Below are positions 8,697-21,566 of a stretch of 35,008 nt of DNA, piece by piece. Under the pieces are notes generated by a model. The model was not told the DNA's origin, did no database searches, and saw only the letters and a list, made by a program, of their open reading frames with translations. Source of the stretch: Streptomyces sp. SID5785 (GTDB lineage: Bacteria; Actinomycetota; Actinomycetes; Streptomycetales; Streptomycetaceae); contig NZ_WWIA01000304.1 of assembly GCF_009870065.1 (NCBI RefSeq), forward strand, positions 1-35,008, given 5' to 3'. Both the position numbers and the translations under genes were made by a program. How positions within the stretch are numbered: the stretch's first letter is position 1; every line of letters starts with the position of its first letter.

Positions 8697-9759
8697 TCAC
8701 ACCGACAGGGTCAGGCCCGTGCCCGCCAGGCAGCCGTCGACGACCTCCGGCCGGTGCTGAAGCATCTTGAGCTTGCGCTTCACGGCACGGGTGACCTGGC
8801 CGAGGTCGGCGGCGGCCAGGTTGCCGATGTCGCGCTTAACGAGCGACCAGATGCCCTCCTGTGGGTTGAGGTCCGGGGCGTACGTCGGCAACTGGAACAC
8901 GGTGAGCCAGTCGGCGTTGGCCTCAAAGAAGTCCCGCAGCGGCGCGACCAGGTGCATGCGCAGGTTGTCCCACACCAGCACGATGGGCCCGCCGAGCTGT
9001 GTACGGGCGCGGAGGACCAGGTCGCGGTAGTCCTTCCAGCCGAAGCCCTTCGGTTGGTCCTTGCGGCCCCGGTACTCGCGGATCGCGTAGATCAGACGCG
9101 ACCGCTCACCAGGCTTGTAGCAGGTCATGCCCGCCATCGACACGCGGCCCGAGCCCCGACCGCGCACACGAACGACCGGAGTGCTGCCCTTACGGCCCCA
9201 GGTCCTGGCACGCGGCGGCGTCATCGACTGGCCGGCTTCATCCTCGAAGACCACCCAGCCACTGTTCGCCGCCGCGGTGCTCTTACCCGCGCCCACACCT
9301 CTCGCTTCCACAGCTCGACCGCATCGTCGTCACGCTCGATCGCACGCCGGGCCGGTTGCTGCCAGCTCCAGCCGTGACGCTTCAGCAGCCGCCAAGTGCC
9401 CTCGACCGTGTAGGACACATGGAACAATCGACCGATCAGTGTCTTCACCCTGGCCAGGGTCCACCGCTGATCGACCCACCGTGTGCCAGAGGGCCGCACG
9501 CCAACTCCCGCTCCAGCCTGGCCATTTGCACATCAGACAGTCGGGGCCGACCAGGTGATCTCTTGGATGCCACCCCGGCCAGGCCTTCCTCGCGCCACTG
9601 GCGTCGCCAGCGTTCTACCGACCGCTCCGAGACCCGCAACGCGGCAGCGATATCCCGGTTCCCCTCCCCGCCCTCGAACCGAGCCACGGCTTCGTGCCGA
9701 ACACGCTCCCGCGCGGGTCTCTCGACGTTGGTCAAGCCACCACCCTGCGCGTATCTCAC
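8697..9759 (-). pseudogene. IS630-family transposase, disrupted by two frameshifts
   Basis: Three minus-strand frames together make one transposase. From the GTG at 9759, an N-terminal helix-turn-helix (GNRDIAAALRVSERSVERWR) runs to about 9480. A second frame continues WVDQRWTLARVKTLIGR and the winged helix VEGTWRLLKRHGWSWQQPA to about 9285. A third frame carries the DDE_3 catalytic domain. The acidic triad is present: VVFEDEAGQ, IVLVWDNLRMHL and DLNPQEGIWSLVKR. Both shifts are in the -1 direction (one base missing at each junction). Some IS630 elements use one programmed -1 shift; two suggest an inactive copy. I could not find convincing terminal inverted repeats or TA duplications, so element ends are not drawn. 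Confidence 0.85.
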
Positions 9760-12253: not shown

Positions 12254-13618
12254 TCACTGCCTGGGTGGCTGGTGGTACGGACCGCCCTGCGGCGTATTCG
12301 GGCTCTGCGGGGCGTAGTTGGGGGGCGGGGCGGCGTTGTACGGCTGCTGGGCGTACGTCGTGGGGTAGGCAGGGGGCTGCTGTTGCGCGGGCTGTACGGG
12401 CTGAGGGTGGTTTCGGCGGTTGCGCAGGGCCACCGCCGTGACCGCGCCCGCGATCAGGACGGCGGCGCCGGCGCCGAGACCGATCCACAGGCCCGTGTTG
12501 CCGCCGCTGTCCCCCGACTGCCCGTCCGCCTCCGGCACCTGCGCCCCCGTCGCCCTCGACGGCTCGGAGGACGGCTTCTCAGCGGCCTGGGCCGGATAGT
12601 CCGCCATCGGGAACTTGTCCGCCGGGCCCGGGTCGCCGGGGGTCTTCAGCGCGATGCGGGGGCGGACGATGCCGTAGCCGATCGAGTCGTTGCGCTTCGC
12701 GCCGTCCGTGGGGGCGCCGATCGTGTTGAGCATGACGCGCAGGACCTGGTTGTTCGTCCAGTCGGGGTGGGCGGACCAGATCAGAGCGGCGCTGGCGGAG
12801 GCGAGGGCGGTGGCGCCACTGGTCCCCTTCGACTTACAGAGACCGGTACTGCCGCCGCAGGCGTGAACCAAGTCGGCGCCTGGAGCGGACACGTCCACCT
12901 GAGGGCCGTAGGTCGAGAAGGGAGCCCGGCGGAGGTCCTTTCCTACGGCACCGACGGCGACAACTCCCGGAGTGGCCGCGGGGTATTCGACCGAGTTCCC
13001 CTTGTCGCCACTGTTGCCCGAGGCGGCGAAGACGAGCGAGCCCTTCTGCAGGGCATACCCGACGGCTTTGCTCACATCCGGGGACGAAGCATTGCTCCCG
13101 CCCAGCGAAATGTTGATCACTTTGGCGCCTGAGTCCGCCGCGTACTTGATGGCGGTGGTGAGCTGCGTGTTCTCCTCGAAGGGCATCACACCCTTCTCGA
13201 TGTCGGGCATTCGGACGGGAAGGATGTCCGCCCCAGGGGCCAGCCCGAAGGCGCCCTTGCCACCGTCGTAGGCCCCCGTCCCCGCGATCAAACCGGCCAT
13301 GCCCGTGCCGTGGCCTTGGTAATCCGTGTGCTCATCGCCCTGCTCCGCCTTGCTGGCGAGATCGAGGCCGTCCAGCACGCGCCCCTTCAGGTCCGGGTTG
13401 CTCGCGTCGACACCCGTGTCGATCACCGCGACTGTGACGCCCTTGCCCGTGCTGGTCTTCCACATGGTCTCGGCCTGCATGGCGTCGAGGAACCATTGCT
13501 GAGAACGGGTCGAGTCGGCATGGGCGGGGGCGTCTGTCACACCCACCACCAACAGCGCACCCAGAGCCGCCGCGGCTGCCGCGCCCCGGCGTCGGTGACG
13601 TGTGCTGATGGTGGGCAT
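12254..13618 (-). CDS. Type VII secretion-associated serine protease (mycosin, S8 family)
   Basis: A 454-residue subtilisin-like protease, membrane-anchored and facing outward. The signal peptide is residues 1-34 (RHRRRGAAAAAALGALLVVGV ... AHA). The catalytic triad is Asp67 (VAVIDTGVD), His103 (QGHGTGMAG) and Ser267 (KGTSGATAL), with oxyanion Asn202 (ASGNSGD). A Cys pair (HACGGSTGLC) before the Ser probably forms a disulfide. A transmembrane helix at about 375-395 (LWIGLGAGAAVLIAGAVTAV) is followed by a basic stop-transfer (RNRRN) and a Pro/Gln/Tyr-rich cytoplasmic tail. In mycobacteria MycP stabilises the ESX machine and cleaves substrates. The gene starts 3 nt after the upstream PPE-like gene, with gagg inside that gene's end, so translation is coupled. 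Confidence 0.92.
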   Translation of the reverse strand: MPTISTRHRRRGAAAAAALGALLVVGVTDAPAHADSTRSQQWFLDAMQAETMWKTSTGKGVTVAVIDTGVDASNPDLKGRVLDGLDLASKAEQGDEHTDYQGHGTGMAGLIAGTGAYDGGKGAFGLAPGADILPVRMPDIEKGVMPFEENTQLTTAIKYAADSGAKVINISLGGSNASSPDVSKAVGYALQKGSLVFAASGNSGDKGNSVEYPAATPGVVAVGAVGKDLRRAPFSTYGPQVDVSAPGADLVHACGGSTGLCKSKGTSGATALASASAALIWSAHPDWTNNQVLRVMLNTIGAPTDGAKRNDSIGYGIVRPRIALKTPGDPGPADKFPMADYPAQAAEKPSSEPSRATGAQVPEADGQSGDSGGNTGLWIGLGAGAAVLIAGAVTAVALRNRRNHPQPVQPAQQQPPAYPTTYAQQPYNAAPPPNYAPQSPNTPQGGPYHQPPRQ

Positions 13619-13621
13619 GCG

Positions 13622-15310
13622 CTACCTCTCGTTCTTCTCTGTCGTGTCGTCGACGACCGACGGTACGTTGCGCTGGTCGTCAGGCTGCCAGGTCGACTCG
13701 TCCTCGGTCACGTAGTCGGGGCGTTCGTTCCCCTGCTCGTCCCTCCGGGAACCGGGACGTGCGCCTCGCGGAGCGCCCGCGGCGCCGTTCTGACCCTCCG
13801 AACGTGCCCCTGCCGGGCCCTTCTGGCCGCTCTCGCCCCGGACCAGGCCGGATCCTCCGGAGCTGAAGGAACGGGAGCCGGAGGCGCCCTTCTGACCACG
13901 TCCTCCGACGATGCCGCCGCTCTCGGCGCGGGCGCCGCTGACGCGACGGCCGGCGCCGGTTCCTCGTGCTCCACTTGTGCCGGTCGAGGCCGGGCGGCCT
14001 CCGATCGCGCCCTGGCCCGTCGCCGACCGGCCGTTGCTCGTGCCCTCCGCACCCATCACGGAGCCACGCGGGATGCCCTTCGTGGGCTTGCCCGTGGCCG
14101 GCTGCGGCCGACCGCCCGCCACTCCGTTGTTCGTCGGCATCCGGCCTTGCACCCCGGAGGCACCGGCTCGGCCCGTGGCACTGTTCTGGCCCGGCATCAT
14201 CTGACCGCCGCGCACGCCCGGAGTCGTCGGGCGTCCCGTCGCACCCGCCGCGGGCGGCGCCGTGGACCGTCCCGTCCCGCCGCTGATCGGAGACGCGCTC
14301 GCCCGGCCGACCGGACCGGACGGCCCCGTCGCACGGCCCGTGGCCGACGGTGTGCCTCCGCCGCGCCCGAAGGCCACGGGCGGAACACCGGGCCCGGACG
14401 CATTCACCGGGCCGCTCGACTGCGGACCGGTCGGCGACACGGGGGCCTCGTGGACGGGAGTCGGCCGTGCCGTCTCCGGCAGCGTGCCGACCGAGTCGAT
14501 CCCCATCTGGGTGGGGACCTCGGGCACCTCGGGCCGTGCCGAGACAGCCGGCGACACCGACACCGCCCCGGTCGACTCCTGTCCGGCATGTGCGGGCGGT
14601 GCGATCGCCGATGCATGTCCGACAGCGCCGGAGCCACTGGCCGGGCCACCTGCCCCCTCTGCTCCGGCGACAGGTCCGGTCCCCGGCCGCGCCAGGTCGG
14701 TGGACTCAGCCCGCGGCGGCGCGATGGCTCGCGGCGGCGGCGGAAACTTGGGCCGCTCCAGCGCGTCCATCTGCGCCGACGACAGCGAATACGCCTGCCC
14801 CAGCTTCGTCATCTCCGCGGCCGCCTCGAGGCGGACCTTCTCCTTGTCCGCCTTGATGGCGGCGAGTTCGCTCGAGGACTTGGAGGCGATCGACTGCGCG
14901 TCGGGGTCGTTGTGCGCGGAATGGGCCGCGTCCAGGTTCGCCTGGGCGCTGGCCTTGTCGCGCGGGATGGATGCCTGGGCGGTGCCGATCGCGTTCGCCG
15001 CTTCGCCGAGCCACTTGGACGACTCCTGGCTGAAGTCGCCCAGCCGCACCGTCGCGTTGGCCAGGTCGCCGGCCCAGCCGCGGAACGCCTCCGCGCCGCT
15101 GCCCTTCCACGTGACCCACTGCGGGCGGACCTTGAGCTCGTCCGCGATCTTGTGGATCTCCTTGGCGGCCGCGGCCAGCCGGTTCGCCGCGGCCTGTACC
15201 TCGCCGCTGTTCGCCTGGTCCAGCCACGCCAGCATCTGCTCGTGGGTCAGCCCCGTGAACTGAGTTCCCCCGCGCCCGCTGCCGCCGCCGGCCTCCCGTG
15301 CCTCTGCCAT
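13622..15310 (-). CDS. PPE/WXG-like protein with long Gly/Arg/Ser-rich tail
   Basis: A 562-residue protein, probably a type VII secretion substrate or structural partner. About residues 18-190 are helical and contain a WXG-type turn (VTWKGSGAEAFRGWAGDL) and long charged helices (AAIKADKEKVRLEAAAEMTKL), as in PPE-type N-domains. From about residue 195 to 520 the chain is low complexity, with Pro then Gly/Ala/Arg/Ser and many ATGR or SGARG-type repeats. The end is conserved-looking and acidic (PDYVTEDESTWQPDDQRNV). Its ATG overlaps the stop of the upstream gene by one base (TGATG), and its stop is 3 nt before the mycosin start. No signal peptide is present, as expected for a type VII client. 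Confidence 0.8.
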   Translation of the reverse strand: MAEAREAGGGSGRGGTQFTGLTHEQMLAWLDQANSGEVQAAANRLAAAAKEIHKIADELKVRPQWVTWKGSGAEAFRGWAGDLANATVRLGDFSQESSKWLGEAANAIGTAQASIPRDKASAQANLDAAHSAHNDPDAQSIASKSSSELAAIKADKEKVRLEAAAEMTKLGQAYSLSSAQMDALERPKFPPPPRAIAPPRAESTDLARPGTGPVAGAEGAGGPASGSGAVGHASAIAPPAHAGQESTGAVSVSPAVSARPEVPEVPTQMGIDSVGTLPETARPTPVHEAPVSPTGPQSSGPVNASGPGVPPVAFGRGGGTPSATGRATGPSGPVGRASASPISGGTGRSTAPPAAGATGRPTTPGVRGGQMMPGQNSATGRAGASGVQGRMPTNNGVAGGRPQPATGKPTKGIPRGSVMGAEGTSNGRSATGQGAIGGRPASTGTSGARGTGAGRRVSGARAESGGIVGGRGQKGASGSRSFSSGGSGLVRGESGQKGPAGARSEGQNGAAGAPRGARPGSRRDEQGNERPDYVTEDESTWQPDDQRNVPSVVDDTTEKNER

Positions 15311-15846
15311 CAGATCGCTCCGCCCGAATCGCCGCCGGATTCCCCGCTCGTGGGCGCGTCCGCGCCGTCCTTGCCCGGGGCCTGCTCGCTCTTCTTGTGG
15401 GTCGGCGGCTCGTACTCGCCGCCGTAGTGCTTCGTGGTCTCGACGCTGATCGCGTGCATGCGGCGCCGGACGTCGTCGTCGATGTTCGCGTAGCCCTTGT
15501 GCGAGGCAAGGACCGCGATGCCCATGCCCTCGATCGAGTCCGAGAGCAGCTTCGAGAGGTTCTCGAGCTCGCCGATCACCGTCGCGTACGACGTGTGAAG
15601 GCCCGAGGCCTCGTGGAAACCGCCTTCGCCGCCACCGAACTTGTGCCGGTCCAGCACCTCTTCGCCGACCTTCTTCGCGTCGGCCGGCGACCCCTTCAGG
15701 TCCTTGATCAGCTGGTCCACCCGCTGCTGGAACTTCGTGAACGACTCCAGCTCCGTGACGATGTCCGCCACCGCACCCTGCGCCGCGCCGATGACGCCGC
15801 CCATCCAGGTGCCGAGGCCGCCGCCACCGTCCTTGTCGTCCGCCAT
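15310..15846 (-). CDS. Small helical protein of the mycosin/PPE-like cassette
   Basis: A 178-residue protein, first gene of the cassette. The N-terminal Gly-rich/amphipathic segment (GGGGLGTWMGGVIGAAQGAV) is followed by long amphipathic helices (FTKFQQRVDQLIKDLKGSP, VIGELENLSKLLSDSIEGMG) of about 100 residues. The tail is disordered and acidic/Gly-rich. The size and helical-hairpin character resemble WXG100-type proteins, but I see no clear WXG motif. The WMGG near residue 14 may be a relic or coincidence. Coupling by the TGATG junction suggests it forms a complex with the PPE-like product, as PE/PPE or EsxA/EsxB pairs do. That pairing is inference. Confidence 0.72.
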   Translation of the reverse strand: MADDKDGGGGLGTWMGGVIGAAQGAVADIVTELESFTKFQQRVDQLIKDLKGSPADAKKVGEEVLDRHKFGGGEGGFHEASGLHTSYATVIGELENLSKLLSDSIEGMGIAVLASHKGYANIDDDVRRRMHAISVETTKHYGGEYEPPTHKKSEQAPGKDGADAPTSGESGGDSGGAI

Positions 15847-16119: not shown

Positions 16120-18477
16120 TCAGGGAGTCGGGGTGGGGGCCGTCGGGGGCTGGTCCGGGGCGACCGCCTGCTGGGGGCGGATCGGGAGGCGGTTGACGGG
16201 GCGGCCCGTGGCGGCGCGGACGGCGGAGGCCACCGCGGCCGGGGACGCGACGACCGGGGCCGCGCTGACCGACTTCGCGCCGAACGGGGCCACGACGTCG
16301 CGCTCCTCGACGAGTTTGACGATGCGGATGTCGGGGGCGTCGAGGGAGGTCGGCAGGGCGTAGCCGGTGAGGTCGGGGCGGCGGACGAGGCCCTTGGGGG
16401 TGCGCAGGTTCTCGGTGAGGGCCGCGCCGACGCCCTGGGTGACGCCCGCCTCGATGCGGGCCGCCAGCTGGCCGGGGTTGAGGACGCGGCCGACGTCCTG
16501 GGCCACGGCGAGTTCGACGACGCGGATCGAGCCGAGTTCGATGTCGACGTCGACGACGGCGCGGATCGCGCAGAAGGCGAGCCCCACGAAGGCGTCGCCC
16601 TGGCCGTCCCCGTCGAGCGGCTCGGTGGGGTGCGGGCGGCACTGCGCGGTGGCCCAGAGCTCCTTGCCGTCCATGGCCTCCTCGACCGTGGTCGACAGGA
16701 CGCCGTCGTACGACGTGATCTTGCCGTCGGCGATCTGGAGGAGCTCGGTGGACATGCCGAACTTGTGGGCCAGCGGCTGGAGGAGCTGGGTGCGGACCAT
16801 CTTCGCGGCCCGCTCGACCGCACCGCCCGAGACCCAGGTGTGGCGGCCGCGGCAGCCGGGGCCGGCCGGGGGCTGGTCCGTGTCGACGGGGGCCACGTGG
16901 ACCTCGTCGATGCCGAGCGTCTCCTGGACGATCTGGCGGGCCAGCGTCGTGAAGCCCTGGCCGGTCTCGACGGCCGCGCACAGGACGGTCGCGACGCCGC
17001 CGTGCACCTTGACGGTGGCGGTGGAGACCTCGTCGGCGCCCTCCGCGCCGAGCATGTGGACCATGCCGACGCCGTAGCCGACGCCGCGCCGCACCGCGCC
17101 GGGTTCGCCCGCGCCCTCGGGGCCGCCGGGCAGCAGCCAGTCCTCCTCGGGGGTGTCCATGGGAAGTTCGGGGAGCGGGAAGTCCCGTACGGAACTGAGG
17201 AGTTCGGCGACGGGCGCCGGGCAGGTGACGGTCTGGCCGGTGGGCAGGACGTCGCCGGTCGCGAGGACGTTGCGCAGGCGCAGCTCGGCCGGGTCGAGGT
17301 TCAGCTTCTTGGCGAGCTTGTCCATCTGGGCCTCGTACGCGGCGCAGACCTGGAGCGCGCCCTCTCCGCGTACGTGGCCGGAGGGCGGGTTGTTCGTGCG
17401 CACGGCCCAGCCCTCGATGGAGGCGTTCGGGACGACGTACGGGCCGCACGCGAAGGAGACCGCCGCCGCGAGGGCGTCCGACGAGGTGTCCGCGTAGGCG
17501 CCCGCGTCGAGCAGGACCTGGGCCTCGACCTTCACCAGCCGGCCTTCGGCGTCGGCGTGGTGGCGGTAGCGGAGCAGCGTCGGGTGGCGGTGCGGGTGGC
17601 CGAGGAACGACTCCTCGCGTGTGGCGGTCAGCTTGACCGGGCAGCCGGTGCGCAGCGCGAGCAGCCCGAGCGGGAGGTGGAAGCTCGGGTCCTCGCGGTC
17701 GGCGGTGGCGCCCGCGACGCCGGTGACGACGACCTTCACGCGCTCGGGGTCGAGGCCGTAGCGGGCGGCGGCCAGGTCGCGGTCGCCGTGCGGGTCGGTC
17801 GAGGCGATGTAGAGCTCGACGCCGCCGTCGGGGCGCGGGACGGCGAGGCCGGCCTCGGCTCCGATGGGGGCGGGGTCCTGCCGGCCGATGCGGTAGAGGC
17901 CCTCGACGACGGTCTCGCCGGCCGCCTCCTGGTCACCGTGGCGGAGCGGGATGTGCCGGATCAGGTTGCCGTCGGGGTGCAGGGGCTCGGCGGCGAAGGC
18001 CTGTTCGGGGTCGGTGACCGGGTCGAGGATCTCGTACTCGACGATGATCGCGGCGGCGGCCATCCGGGCGGTGTCGGGGTGCTCGGCGGCGACGGCGGCG
18101 AGCGGCTCGCCGTGGTGGCGCACGACGTCGGAGGCGAACACGGGGCGGTCGGCGGCGCGGTGTCCGGGCACGGAGCCGCCGGGGACGTCCTCGTGGGTGA
18201 CGACCGCGCGGACGCCGGGCATCTCCCGCGCGTGGGTGGTGTCGATGGACACCACGCGCGCGTGGGCGTGCGGGGAGCGCAGGACGGAGGCCCACAGGAG
18301 TCCCTCCGCCCACAGGTCGGACGCGTACGGGAACGTGCCTTCGGCCTTGGGGCCCGCCTCGACGGAGGGCAGGTCCGCGCCGATGCCGTGCGGCAGCGCC
18401 TCGGTGTCGGGCGGGCCGGGGTCCGGGGTGCCTCCGGTGAGCAGGGTGGTGCTCGTGTCGGTCGCGTCGTGGGTCAT
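16120..18477 (-). CDS. Xanthine dehydrogenase-family molybdopterin-binding subunit with degenerate active site
   Basis: A 785-residue large subunit of the xanthine oxidase/CO dehydrogenase family, last gene of a FAD/Fe-S/Mo operon. The N-domain (KAEGTFPYASDLWAEGLLWASVLRSPHAHARV) and overall length are normal. Several cofactor motifs deviate from the family. The stretch aligned with GGGFGGK reads AGATADR (residues 255-261). RGFG[AV]PQ reads RGEGALQ (370-376). Near the C-terminus GAKGxGE reads GAKSVSA (733-739), putting Ala739 where the catalytic Glu normally sits. The changes are clean substitutions in an otherwise intact, normally biased frame, so the gene is not simply decaying. It may bind another cofactor or substrate, or act without hydroxylase chemistry. 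Its ATG overlaps the Fe-S gene stop (ATGA). Confidence 0.9.
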   Translation of the reverse strand: MTHDATDTSTTLLTGGTPDPGPPDTEALPHGIGADLPSVEAGPKAEGTFPYASDLWAEGLLWASVLRSPHAHARVVSIDTTHAREMPGVRAVVTHEDVPGGSVPGHRAADRPVFASDVVRHHGEPLAAVAAEHPDTARMAAAAIIVEYEILDPVTDPEQAFAAEPLHPDGNLIRHIPLRHGDQEAAGETVVEGLYRIGRQDPAPIGAEAGLAVPRPDGGVELYIASTDPHGDRDLAAARYGLDPERVKVVVTGVAGATADREDPSFHLPLGLLALRTGCPVKLTATREESFLGHPHRHPTLLRYRHHADAEGRLVKVEAQVLLDAGAYADTSSDALAAAVSFACGPYVVPNASIEGWAVRTNNPPSGHVRGEGALQVCAAYEAQMDKLAKKLNLDPAELRLRNVLATGDVLPTGQTVTCPAPVAELLSSVRDFPLPELPMDTPEEDWLLPGGPEGAGEPGAVRRGVGYGVGMVHMLGAEGADEVSTATVKVHGGVATVLCAAVETGQGFTTLARQIVQETLGIDEVHVAPVDTDQPPAGPGCRGRHTWVSGGAVERAAKMVRTQLLQPLAHKFGMSTELLQIADGKITSYDGVLSTTVEEAMDGKELWATAQCRPHPTEPLDGDGQGDAFVGLAFCAIRAVVDVDIELGSIRVVELAVAQDVGRVLNPGQLAARIEAGVTQGVGAALTENLRTPKGLVRRPDLTGYALPTSLDAPDIRIVKLVEERDVVAPFGAKSVSAAPVVASPAAVASAVRAATGRPVNRLPIRPQQAVAPDQPPTAPTPTP

Positions 18478-20111
18478 GCCTGCCCTCCGTTCCGGAAGTC
18501 GCCCGGGGCGTCGTGCCCGTCGTACTCGTCGTGCCCGTCGTACTCGTCGAAGCGGTCCCGGCCGCCGTGCCCGTCGTGCCCGGCGTAACCGTTGCGGCCG
18601 CTTCCGGTGTCGAAGCCGTCGTGACCGTCCTGGTCGCCGCCCGGGTGGTTGCCGTCCCGCGCGTCGGGGATCGCGCCCGCGACGCCCTCACCGGCGACGG
18701 GGCCGCCCTGGTGCGGGATGCGGGCCTCGGCGGGGGCCGGGTGGGCGGCCTCGTCGGCGGTCGCCGCGGCGGAGGCCGTGCGCTCGGCGGTCACCTGGCG
18801 GACGGCGTCGAGGACACCGCGGTAGCCGGAGCAGCGGCACAGGTTGCCGCACAGGGCCTGCCGGGTCTCGAGGTCGCTGGGGGCCGGGTTGCCCTCGAGG
18901 AGGTCGTGGACGGTCATCGCCATCCCGGGCACGCAGAACCCGCACTGGACGGCGCCGCACGCCGTGAGCGCGCGCTGGACGTCCGAGGGCTGCCCGTCGG
19001 CGGCCAGGCCCTCGACGGTGCGGACGTCGCTGCCCGCCGTGGTCGCGGCCGGTACGAGGCAGGAGGCGACGAGGCGGCCGTCCACCTGGACGTTGCACGC
19101 GCCGCACTCGCCCTGGGAGCAGCCGTCCTTGGCGCCCGCGAGGCCGAGGCGCTCGCGCAGGACGTACAGGAGCGACTCGCCGATCCAGGCGTCGGTGACG
19201 GGGCGGTCCGCGCCGTTGACCCGCAGGACGTAGCTGGCCAGGGGGTGGTCGTCGTGGAGGGGGGCGGCTGCCGCGGGCTCGGCGGCGGGGGCCGCGTCCG
19301 CGTCGGGCGTGACCGTGTCGGCGGCTTCCGCGGCGGGGTCGACGGCCGTGTCGGCGCCTTCTGCGGCGGGGTCGACGGCCGTGTCGACGGCCGTGTCGAC
19401 GGCGCCCTCCGCTGCGGCGTTCGGCGCGGGCTCCTGCGCGGCGGCGGGCCCGGGGTCGTCGGTACCGGTGTCCGCGACGCCGTCGGCCCGGGGTCCGTGG
19501 GGTGCGGCGGGCGTCTCGTCGGCCGCCGCAGCCTCCTCGTACGCCTCGCCCGGCGCCTCGGCCGCGACGGGCTCGGGGTCGGGCAGCGGCCCGGGCTCCG
19601 GCTGGGCCCACGCCTCGTTCGCCCAGGGCGCGGCCGCGCCCCCGGGGAGCGTCGCGGGCGGCGGCGTCGCCGTCCGGTCGGACCACGGCCGGCCCACCGC
19701 GGAGCTCGTGAACTCACCGGAGTCGTCGGCGAGTTCGGCCTCGGCCACCGGGATCGACCACTGGCCGGTGCGGTACTCGGGCCCCTCGTCGTGCGCAGCC
19801 GGACCGGGCACGGGCTCGGGCTCGGCGGGCTGCGGGGCCGGTGCGGTCCCGGTCAGGTCCGGCGGCAGCACCCACACCCCGGTCGCGCCGGGGTCGGTCG
19901 CGGTGGCCCCCACGGCGGGGCTCACCGTTATCTGCGGCGGCACGTAGTTGTGCCCGGGCGCGGCCAGCGGCGCGGTGTCCGGGAAGCCCTCGGGCGGCAG
20001 CTGGACGAAGGCGGTCGCGTCGGCGTCGTACTCGCCCTGGGGCAGCGGCTCCCAGCCGTCCCCGTCGTGGGCGCCGGAGCCGGCACCGGAACCGTGGTAC
20101 TCGTTCGTCAC
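18474..20111 (-). CDS. 2Fe-2S subunit of the xanthine dehydrogenase-like complex, with long extensions
   Basis: A 545-residue electron-transfer subunit; the family is usually about 160-200 residues. The core at about 289-445 holds all eight cluster cysteines. The plant-ferredoxin-type cluster is CSQGECGAC with a fourth Cys at ASC. The second cluster uses QCGFC and LCRCSGY. The ~288-residue N-terminal extension is Pro/Ala/Glu-rich and contains repeats such as VDTAVDTAVDPAAEGADTA. The C-terminal ~100 residues are Gly/Asp/His/Tyr-rich (RFDEYDGHDEYDGHD) and look able to bind metal. The GTG at 20111 is supported by ggaggg 7 nt upstream and by a GTGA overlap with the FAD gene. It passes electrons between the Mo and FAD subunits in known relatives. 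Confidence 0.9.
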   Translation of the reverse strand: MTNEYHGSGAGSGAHDGDGWEPLPQGEYDADATAFVQLPPEGFPDTAPLAAPGHNYVPPQITVSPAVGATATDPGATGVWVLPPDLTGTAPAPQPAEPEPVPGPAAHDEGPEYRTGQWSIPVAEAELADDSGEFTSSAVGRPWSDRTATPPPATLPGGAAAPWANEAWAQPEPGPLPDPEPVAAEAPGEAYEEAAAADETPAAPHGPRADGVADTGTDDPGPAAAQEPAPNAAAEGAVDTAVDTAVDPAAEGADTAVDPAAEAADTVTPDADAAPAAEPAAAAPLHDDHPLASYVLRVNGADRPVTDAWIGESLLYVLRERLGLAGAKDGCSQGECGACNVQVDGRLVASCLVPAATTAGSDVRTVEGLAADGQPSDVQRALTACGAVQCGFCVPGMAMTVHDLLEGNPAPSDLETRQALCGNLCRCSGYRGVLDAVRQVTAERTASAAATADEAAHPAPAEARIPHQGGPVAGEGVAGAIPDARDGNHPGGDQDGHDGFDTGSGRNGYAGHDGHGGRDRFDEYDGHDEYDGHDAPGDFRNGGQA

Positions 20112-21004
20112 GACAGTGCCCTCCCGAGCGCACGACGGGCCAGCACCGCGACGGTGCGCCGCAGGTGCAGTACGGCGGGCGGCAGCGACTGCTGCGTGCC
20201 GTCCGCGGCGGGGTCCGGGTCCGGGATGCAGGCCGCGGCCACGTACTCGCCGAAGGCCTGCACGGCCTCGGGCACGAGCGCGCCGCGCTCCCCGTCCCAG
20301 TCGATGAGCGAGGCCACCCACTGCTCGGCCTCCAGGGGCCGCAGCGGCATGGGCGCGATGGCGCCGACCGCGCAGCGCACGCCGCGCCGGGCCGGGTCGA
20401 GGACGAGGGCCACGGAGGCGGTGGCGCGGGCGGGTCCGGTGCGGCCGGTGGCCTTGAGGAAGACCTGCGGCGCGTGCAGCAGCGGCACGCGGACGAAGCC
20501 GATGAGTTCGCCGGGCCGGAGCATCTCCATCCCGGCGAGCAGGTGCGAGACGGGGACCTCGCGCCGGGCGCCGCCGGGGCCCGCGATGATCAGCGTGGCC
20601 TCGAGGGCGGCGAGGACGGGCAGCGAGTCGTTGGTCGGGGCGGCGGAGGCGATGTTGCCGCCGAGGGTGCCCGCGTTGCGGATCTGGGGCGGGCCCGCGG
20701 CGCGGGACGCGGCGGCGAGGGCGGGGATGAGGGCGGCGAAGTCGGGGCGGCCCATGCGGGCGTGGGTGAGTCCGGCGCCGAGGAGCGCGTGCCCGTCCTG
20801 GTACTGCCAGCCGCGGATCTCGCTGATCCGGCCGAGTCCGACGAGGGCCGCGGGGCGCAGTTGACCCGCGTTGACCTGCGCCATGAGGTCGGTGCCGCCG
20901 GCGACGGGCACGGCGGCGGGCAGGGCGGCGAGCGCCGCGACCGCCTCGTCGAGCGAACCCGGAAGTACCGCGGCCTGTGTCGCCTGCGGTGCGTGCGTGG
21001 TCAA
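20108..21004 (-). CDS. FAD-binding subunit of the xanthine dehydrogenase-like complex
   Basis: A 298-residue CoxM/XdhB-type flavoprotein subunit that delivers electrons from the Fe-S clusters to the final acceptor. FAD pyrophosphate-binding motifs are VAGGTDLMAQVNAG near residue 36 and IRNAGTLGGNIASAAPTND near residue 100. The C-terminal CO dehydrogenase flavoprotein domain follows (TGRTGPARATASVALVLD). I use the TTG at 21004 (LTTHAPQ): ggaagggg lies 8 nt upstream and homology starts just after it. The upstream frame is open but lacks family sequence. It is the first gene of the operon, and its stop overlaps the Fe-S gene start by 4 nt. Confidence 0.9.
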   Translation of the reverse strand: MTTHAPQATQAAVLPGSLDEAVAALAALPAAVPVAGGTDLMAQVNAGQLRPAALVGLGRISEIRGWQYQDGHALLGAGLTHARMGRPDFAALIPALAAASRAAGPPQIRNAGTLGGNIASAAPTNDSLPVLAALEATLIIAGPGGARREVPVSHLLAGMEMLRPGELIGFVRVPLLHAPQVFLKATGRTGPARATASVALVLDPARRGVRCAVGAIAPMPLRPLEAEQWVASLIDWDGERGALVPEAVQAFGEYVAAACIPDPDPAADGTQQSLPPAVLHLRRTVAVLARRALGRALS

Positions 21005-21566
21005 ACCGGCTGCCCCTTCCCGATGTCCGGCCGCTTGCCTCTGCGGCGGTGCCGGCCCCGCGTGGTCCGCGCGTTGCCGCCGTGCCCGCCGTGACGCCTG
21101 TTCCGCCGTACGGTACGTCCTGACAGGCCGGACGTGGCAACTCTGGCACATCTTCCCCGACACCCGGAGAGGGGGTCCGGTAGGAGGCTTTCGCCCCTTC
21201 CACCTGGGAGATGACCGGTTTGTCAAGGCAACGCCGCTCAGCGCGTCTTGCCACTCTTCGCCGGCGTATGGGACGGGTTACGCACTGCGGCGGCCGCCGA
21301 GCCCGGCTCCACAGCCCGCACACCGGGGCCGCACAGCAGCCGCACCGGAACCGCATGCGAAGCGCATATGCAGTCCGCATAAAGAACGCGTAAGGGGCGT
21401 TCGTGCGCCCTCGGCGCGCATATCCGGACCGGCACGCTCCCCCGCACCGCCGCCGTGAGCCCCGGGTGCGCCCGCCGGCCGGCCGACGGCGCACCCCGCG
21501 GCCGGCCCCCGCGCCACCAGCCGTCCGGCGTCCGGTGGTGCGGGACACGCCGTCGCACCCCGCGGC
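21005..21566. other. 562-nt intergenic region upstream of the xanthine dehydrogenase-like operon
   Basis: It should contain the operon promoter and the 3' end of the hexosaminidase transcript. A perfect minus-strand TTGACA is at 21221-21226 but has no good -10 at the right distance. Repeated GCAT motifs occur at 21353, 21364, 21377 and 21418, including an inverted ATGCG-AAG-CGCAT at 21355-21367. A GC-rich hairpin is at 21464-21496. I see no convincing gene in it. Confidence 0.45.
21464..21496 (-). terminator. Hairpin downstream of hexosaminidase operon
   Basis: GGGTGCGCC (21464-21472) pairs with GGCGCACCC (21488-21496) around a 15-nt loop that is itself rich in CCGG palindromes. It lies 70 nt past the hexosaminidase stop. 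There is no T-tract. Confidence 0.4.

Follow-up and report, generated by a model that had tools for sequence, protein, structure and literature searches.

The locus described here raises the question of whether a xanthine dehydrogenase (XDH)-type complex that has no glutamate at its catalytic position still carries out molybdenum (Mo) chemistry. The window, that is, the whole stretch of 35,008 nucleotides of Streptomyces sp. SID5785 that was analysed (contig NZ_WWIA01000304.1), encodes on its minus strand a homologue of the XDH Mo subunit with 785 amino acids (16120–18477), recognised by its open reading frame (ORF), its Pfam domains and a structure-anchored alignment. A sequence-only reading of the same DNA had taken this frame to be intact, and the ORF and its coordinates were confirmed. 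Upstream and in the same direction lie the genes of a [2Fe-2S] subunit with eight ligand cysteines and a long N-terminal extension (18474–20111, minus strand, GTG start at 20111 or 20114) and of a flavin adenine dinucleotide (FAD)-binding subunit, in which the GGTDLM and TLGGNI motifs are kept (20108–21226, minus strand, true start uncertain). The Mo-subunit ORF matched Ald_Xan_dh_C (98.8 bits), MoCoBD_1 (177.5 bits) and MoCoBD_2 (149.4 bits), all above the cut-off, and these three domains, together with partners bearing two [2Fe-2S] clusters and an FAD domain, assign the complex to the xanthine oxidase/XDH fold. The top NCBIfam model was pucD (TIGR03196), whose score of 632.4 bits fell below the cut-off of 783.65, and the subunit does not qualify as its equivalog.

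Our judgement, which is evenly balanced, is that the complex would be a former XDH whose present role is that of a flavo-[2Fe-2S]2 oxidoreductase or of a redox-linked sensor, in which classical hydroxylation is gone and which contains no sulfurated molybdenum cofactor (Moco) and probably no Moco at all, or else is loaded in an unconventional way. The reasons are that XdhC appears to be dispensable and that the Mo subunit no longer has its catalytic base, its Mo-proximal Gly motif, the Phe that stacks on the pterin or the pterin Gln, while the Fe-S and FAD half still looks like a functioning electron chain. The earlier suggestion of a conserved complex that does something other than classical hydroxylation, or uses a different cofactor mode, gains sequence-level support from the clade-wide fixation, the intact partners and the survival without XdhC that are described below.

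Residues around the molybdenum site

The Mo subunit was aligned to the solved structures 1rm6 (4-hydroxybenzoyl-CoA reductase), 1sij (D. gigas MOP) and 7dqx (KdhL). The motif GAKSVSA (residues 733–739; 16261–16281, minus strand, as are all motifs below) aligned on GAKEASE of 1rm6, GASGVGE of 1sij (E869 by count along the printed line) and GAKGLGE of 7dqx, which indicated that Ala739 occupies the position of the catalytic Glu, as the sequence-only reading had proposed. That reading had also placed AGATADR and RGEGALQ on cofactor loops, and by alignment AGATADR (residues 255–261; 17695–17715) lies on the Mo-proximal loop and RGEG (residues 370–373; 17359–17370) on the RGxG loop. Its consensus for the former loop, GGGFGGK, was less apt: the site is indeed altered, but the closest catalytic relatives have GGAFG[AG]R there. 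Thr258 aligned on KdhL F269 and Ala259 on KdhL G270. Published work is cited here by PMC number; in KdhL, F269 stacks on the pterin and G270 lies 3.9 Å from Mo (PMC8305194). The loop has thus exchanged the stacking Phe for Thr258, and it carries a new Asp260. Two further changes were absent from the earlier list, namely the newly fixed Glu372 and an Arg in place of the pterin-binding Gln. This Arg674 (16456–16458) aligned on Q807 of D. gigas MOP, which we take to be a pterin contact. Gln1203 of hAOX1, which is taken to be the same position, was reported among the pterin-stabilising residues (PMC6487702).

These changes are not peculiar to the window. Among the best 80 of 556 relatives (78 titled Streptomyces and two 'Actinobacteria bacterium', 86–93% identical to the window), all 80 shared RGEG and Ala at the Glu position, which rules out drift in the window copy alone. 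The sequence-only reading had left it to orthologues whether the changes are clade-wide; they are, and close orthologues lack intact motifs. A broader set of 159 sequences comprised the window, the 80 relative loci and 78 others, with the best match per locus only; L087 (the window again), L166 (which overlaps L151) and L001–L006 were left out, and L165, the window genome's own PucD-type copy, was counted as Glu-type. By the residue at position 739, this set contained 119 A-type (118 Ala, one Ser), six Asp-type and 34 Glu-type sequences. The sole A-type copy with Ser was L108 (GAKAASS).

Position 674 was Arg in all A-type (119/119) and Asp-type (6/6) sequences and Gln in all 34 of the Glu-type. 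Within the A-type, the stacking-Phe site was Phe in only 2/119, the Mo-proximal Gly site was Gly in 15/119 and Ala in 102/119, and the Mo-proximal loop, AGATADR in the window, mostly read PGATADR in relatives. Compared with a Mo hydroxylase, the A-type therefore lacks the catalytic Glu, the GGxFG loop and the pterin Gln. The claim that the standard cofactor loops are lost stood only in part, because several are replaced but Arg370 (118/119), Gln681 (118/119), the Gln of GQG (112/119; residues 506–508, 16954–16962 in the window) and mostly Gln200 (104/119) are kept. Displacement of the Glu within the C-terminal loop was ruled out, as no majority acidic residue was found at 728–760 in the A-type. 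Glu724 and Asp727 are fixed in the A-type, yet they are also the commonest residues there in the Glu-type.

The main alternative, which we consider unlikely, is a hydroxylase that still binds Moco but differs in geometry and substrate, its catalytic carboxylate having shifted from position 739 to Glu372 on the RGxG loop. Position 372 is Glu in 119/119 A-type sequences and in none of the 34 Glu-type (Phe in 31, Leu in two, His in one) or six Asp-type sequences, and the RGxG loop lies about 4 Å from Mo in KdhL (PMC8305194). The retention of Arg370, GQG, Gln681 and mostly Gln200 also suits such a relocation, as does the fact that the E1265Q variant of mAOX1 still holds Moco (PMC2671166). Against this, the stacking Phe is present in only two A-type sequences, the pterin Gln has become Arg in all of them and the Mo-proximal Gly has become Ala in 102, and the complex survives without XdhC in 6/6 genomes. 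Moreover, the coupling of Ala739 with Glu372 is a single event on the tree, and for this reason it has no statistical replication.

The census of the GTDB family covered 150 genomes and was counted by hand, with the A-type label given by identity where the sequence was not fetched. On this basis, the A-type was present in 142/150 genomes. A match of at least 65% identity was found in 141/150 (G034, G074 and G136 giving partial matches only), and in G015 the match came in two pieces with 64–68% identity and carried GAKPVGA. In this G015 copy (L172), a single open frame spans both pieces and the additional sequence that separates query residues 441 and 448. Seven g2/g5 genomes gave a match of 50–51% identity, and the Asp motif was read in 6/6 of the g2/g5 copies examined, G020 being left out. 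G138, a genome that is 71% complete, had none among the matches listed.

Descent and constraint at one locus

In the usual gene order, the FAD, Fe-S and Mo subunits are followed by genes for a major facilitator superfamily (MFS) transporter and a helicase, and MurA flanks the opposite side. At the 80 relative loci, matches were found for the FAD subunit at 71, the Fe-S subunit at 78, GH20 at 67, MFS at 47, the helicase at 44 and MurA at 29, counts that are affected by the many loci cut by contig ends or by the 8-kb flank. The same neighbours, in whole or in part, surround the Asp-type loci of g2/g5 (L127–L132) and the outgroup loci of f2 (L121) and f11 (L155 and L159, and L154 without a helicase match). 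The outgroup copies in this shared neighbourhood keep the Glu (4/4 read), with loops reading GGAFG[AQ]R and G-E. In a tree of 65 rows, which omits L087, L166, 14 of the 19 Streptomyces loci L088–L106 and the 80 relative loci, f11 branched first and f2 next, and the Asp-type and A-type formed sister clades. The four states at position 739 need three changes on this tree, the minimum possible. A second tree carries the warning that its long rows L121 and L155 meet.

Taken together, the shared locus and the tree suggest that the Glu was lost on or soon after the family stem. The comparison showed a putative XDH-type heterotrimer locus, inherited at one genomic position, that lost the catalytic Glu in this family, to Asp in one branch and to Ala in the main branch. 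Arg674 is common to both types (125/125), and Glu372 is confined to the A-type. The Asp-type copies (L127–L132), which sit on a long branch, represent a second altered active site: their loops read RGPG or RGAG and GGSxGxR, and Arg has taken the place of the pterin Gln.

The ratio of nonsynonymous to synonymous substitution rates (dN/dS), from hand-chosen pairs, was 0.085–0.278 in the A-type (ten pairs), 0.102 and 0.188 in the Asp-type (two pairs) and 0.112–0.283 in the Glu-type (seven pairs). In the A-type, 470/785 positions were at least 95% conserved. At 35 positions each type was fixed for a residue of its own (conserved in at least 95% of A-type and at least 85% of Glu-type sequences), and nine positions that were at least 95% conserved in the Glu-type varied in the A-type (below 80%); the thresholds of the two counts are not symmetrical. 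Charged sites newly fixed in the A-type include 199, 228, 260, 330, 368, 372, 543 and 674, and several lie on active-site loops; position 543, among the newly fixed pocket residues, is Arg or His.

The partner subunits were conserved as well. The earlier claim of all eight cysteines in the Fe-S partner agreed with its sequence, and each of the eight sites was Cys in 18/18 family loci. In the 78 rows from the 80 relative loci, Cys was found at each site in 71–72, with 5–7 gaps and one row each departing at three sites; the corresponding figures were 19/20 for the Glu-type (one gap) and 5/6 for the Asp-type. The FAD motifs were kept in the rows inspected. Because dN/dS is low and the Fe-S cysteines and FAD motifs are kept, the altered Mo site looks replaced and locked, not decayed. 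According to these alignments, the predicted Mo pocket acquired new fixed residues, among them Glu372, Asp260, Arg674 and Arg/His543, and the Fe-S and FAD subunits were left intact.

Such conservation bears on a second alternative, to which we give a low probability, that the trimer is a redox-silent pseudoenzyme acting as a structural or regulatory scaffold, with the clusters and FAD kept for folding only. The loss of the catalytic base together with strong constraint along the whole chain would agree with it, and the long extension of the Fe-S subunit could bind partners. However, the trimer has kept the eight cluster cysteines and the FAD motifs just as its catalytic relatives have, which exceeds the needs of a scaffold.

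XdhC, cofactor supply and the weight of the evidence

XdhC is known to sulfurate Moco and insert it, and XDH from an xdhC mutant of R. capsulatus contained its Fe-S clusters and FAD but no Mo-molybdopterin (PMC2997495). In 394 family genomes searched for PF02738, six had one match only, an A-type protein (79–86% identical). XdhC_C (PF13478) was absent from 6/6 of these genomes and present in 54/55 of the other genomes tested (61 distinct genomes in all). The exception, G201, is an assembly of about 910 contigs with a second XDH present. In 22 of the 23 XdhC-bearing genomes compared by hand, an XdhC match lay within about 5 kb of a non-A-type PF02738 gene. The six genomes without XdhC represent three placements on the second tree, whose rows from the 80-relative set carry no XDH/XdhC scoring. 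In each of the six, the Fe-S and FAD subunits are present and their motifs are conserved. The survey showed that the predicted complex is maintained in genomes without another PF02738 protein and without XdhC. The maturation by XdhC that is expected of a Mo hydroxylase is thus missing in these genomes, which indicates that the complex is independent of XdhC or that another helper, possibly a substitute chaperone, serves it.

It is also conceivable, though we rate the chance as small, that the complex contains a non-sulfurated (dioxo) or modified Moco and catalyses another reaction, such as a reduction, for which a base at 739 is not required. The pterin contacts are partly retained, and the absence of XdhC, the chaperone of both sulfuration and insertion, fits a Moco without sulfuration (PMC2997495), but Arg674 and the Pro/Ala-Gly-Ala loop make for an altered site. 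Decay, sequencing error or misalignment is hardly credible, since RGEG and Ala are shared by 80/80 relatives, the alignment is anchored on solved structures, and dN/dS well below 1 together with the fixed new residues rules out decay.

Several observations weigh against a Moco-free complex. The association with XdhC (Fisher p 1.3e-7) ignores shared ancestry, and its 55 comparison genomes were picked (few-XDH genomes and controls). Some XDH homologues of E. coli likewise lack a co-transcribed XdhC (PMC2997495), and a different chaperone could act in its place. MoaA was found in 150/150 family genomes, and Moco is therefore available to the cells; loss of Moco synthesis was for this reason uninformative as a test. 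The E1265Q variant of mAOX1 contained 60% Moco compared with 70% in the wild type (PMC2671166), which means that the loss of the Glu alone does not expel Moco. The retained Arg370, Gln681, GQG Gln and Gln200 are unexpected if pterin was never bound, and the same is true of the Gln of QCGFC, which is kept in the Fe-S subunit. Active-site columns were included in both trees, in which the Asp clade sits on a long branch. Finally, AlphaFold2 run on 81 near-identical sequences gave a mean pLDDT of 33.8; the model was left unused and the pocket geometry comes from the alignment.

The proposed loss of classical hydroxylation itself agrees with mutagenesis, because KdhL E748A lost all activity (PMC8305194) and mAOX1 E1265Q was inactive (PMC2671166). 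In the proposed Moco-free complex, FAD would be the point of entry or exit for electrons, with the two [2Fe-2S] clusters as their path, and Arg674, Glu372 and their neighbours would form a new charged network that supports the cavity once used by Moco and substrate. Alternatively, this cavity may accommodate another polar ligand, which would gate electrons or accept them. More tentatively, we suggest that the whole family turned an inherited XDH into a Moco-free flavo-iron-sulphur machine with a charged cavity for another ligand and the electron chain kept. If so, it would be a natural exit from molybdenum chemistry within the xanthine oxidase family, with Glu, Asp and Ala variants at one locus.

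As for expression, S. coelicolor SCO2940 is presumably an orthologue of the A-type Mo subunit, judging from its annotation and gene order. SCO2940 ('putative oxidoreductase' or 'xanthine dehydrogenase, putative') was one of nine genes that were singled out when isobaric tagging (iTRAQ) and microarray data were combined (PMC3770449), and this suggests synthesis of its product.

Neighbouring features and known systems

The Fe-S subunit (18474–20111) begins with about 290 residues rich in Pro, Ala and acidic residues, with blocks conserved in Streptomyces near PxESGE and PPxTLPGGAxAPWA. A YDxxATAFVxLP motif occurred in 61/77 Fe-S ORFs from the 80 relative loci and in 0/3 f11 ORFs. This extension may serve in docking or regulation. 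The stretch 12254–15846, downstream of the Mo subunit, encodes a mycosin protease of type VII secretion (TIGR03921, 318.9 bits, cut-off 278.75) and two neighbours without a Pfam or NCBIfam match; all three are on the side where relatives carry the MFS and helicase genes. A tie to the type VII protease as a general feature was ruled out, with a mycosin found at 3/80 relative loci, a minimum given the truncated loci. A DDE_3 transposase-like ORF lies at 8697–9311 (77.4 bits).

No publication on the altered active site was found among the matches listed for an open-access library. The GAOR isozymes keep the Glu (PMC4726530). The accessible parts of PMC9739823 and PMC6629963 contain nothing on the A-type locus, and the latter names a different gene, SCO4972, as xanthine dehydrogenase. 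A search of viral contigs gave no relative able to deepen the Mo-subunit alignment.

A complex that is nearly universal in this family scores as xanthine dehydrogenase in the libraries, a name that is probably wrong for its chemistry. If it is Moco-free, it shows a complex molybdoenzyme rebuilt for another task with its wiring kept, and the active-site series at one locus makes the transition testable by residue swaps. If Moco is kept and Glu372 is the base, it would have an unusual catalytic geometry for a long-studied family.

Several known systems are close to the proposed state. The G1269R variant of hAOX1 is folded and contains Fe-S clusters and FAD but is Moco-free, and like the A-type it has a change beside the catalytic Glu and a new Arg in the Moco pocket; it is, however, an inactive human variant with one change, whereas the A-type has many sites fixed across a bacterial family (PMC6487702). 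Similarly, R. capsulatus XDH without XdhC came from a laboratory mutant, while the XdhC-less A-type genomes are natural and conserve the complex (PMC2997495). The PucCDE/XdhABC-type XDH (TIGR03196, pucD) shares with the A-type complex the plan of FAD, two [2Fe-2S] clusters and Mo subunit, the domains and common descent, and the window genome's own pucD-type copy (G000:C872) is 44% identical to the window's Mo subunit. The two differ at the active site, where PucCDE/XdhABC has GGAFG[AG]R, RGFG and G-E and the window's subunit has AGATADR (mostly PGATADR in relatives), RGEG, S-A and Arg in place of the pterin Gln. In respiratory complex I, the subunit NuoG derives from a molybdoenzyme and, as is proposed for the A-type, retains Fe-S clusters without the Mo cofactor, but it belongs to the dimethyl sulfoxide reductase/formate dehydrogenase superfamily, unlike the A-type, which is a member of the xanthine oxidase family.
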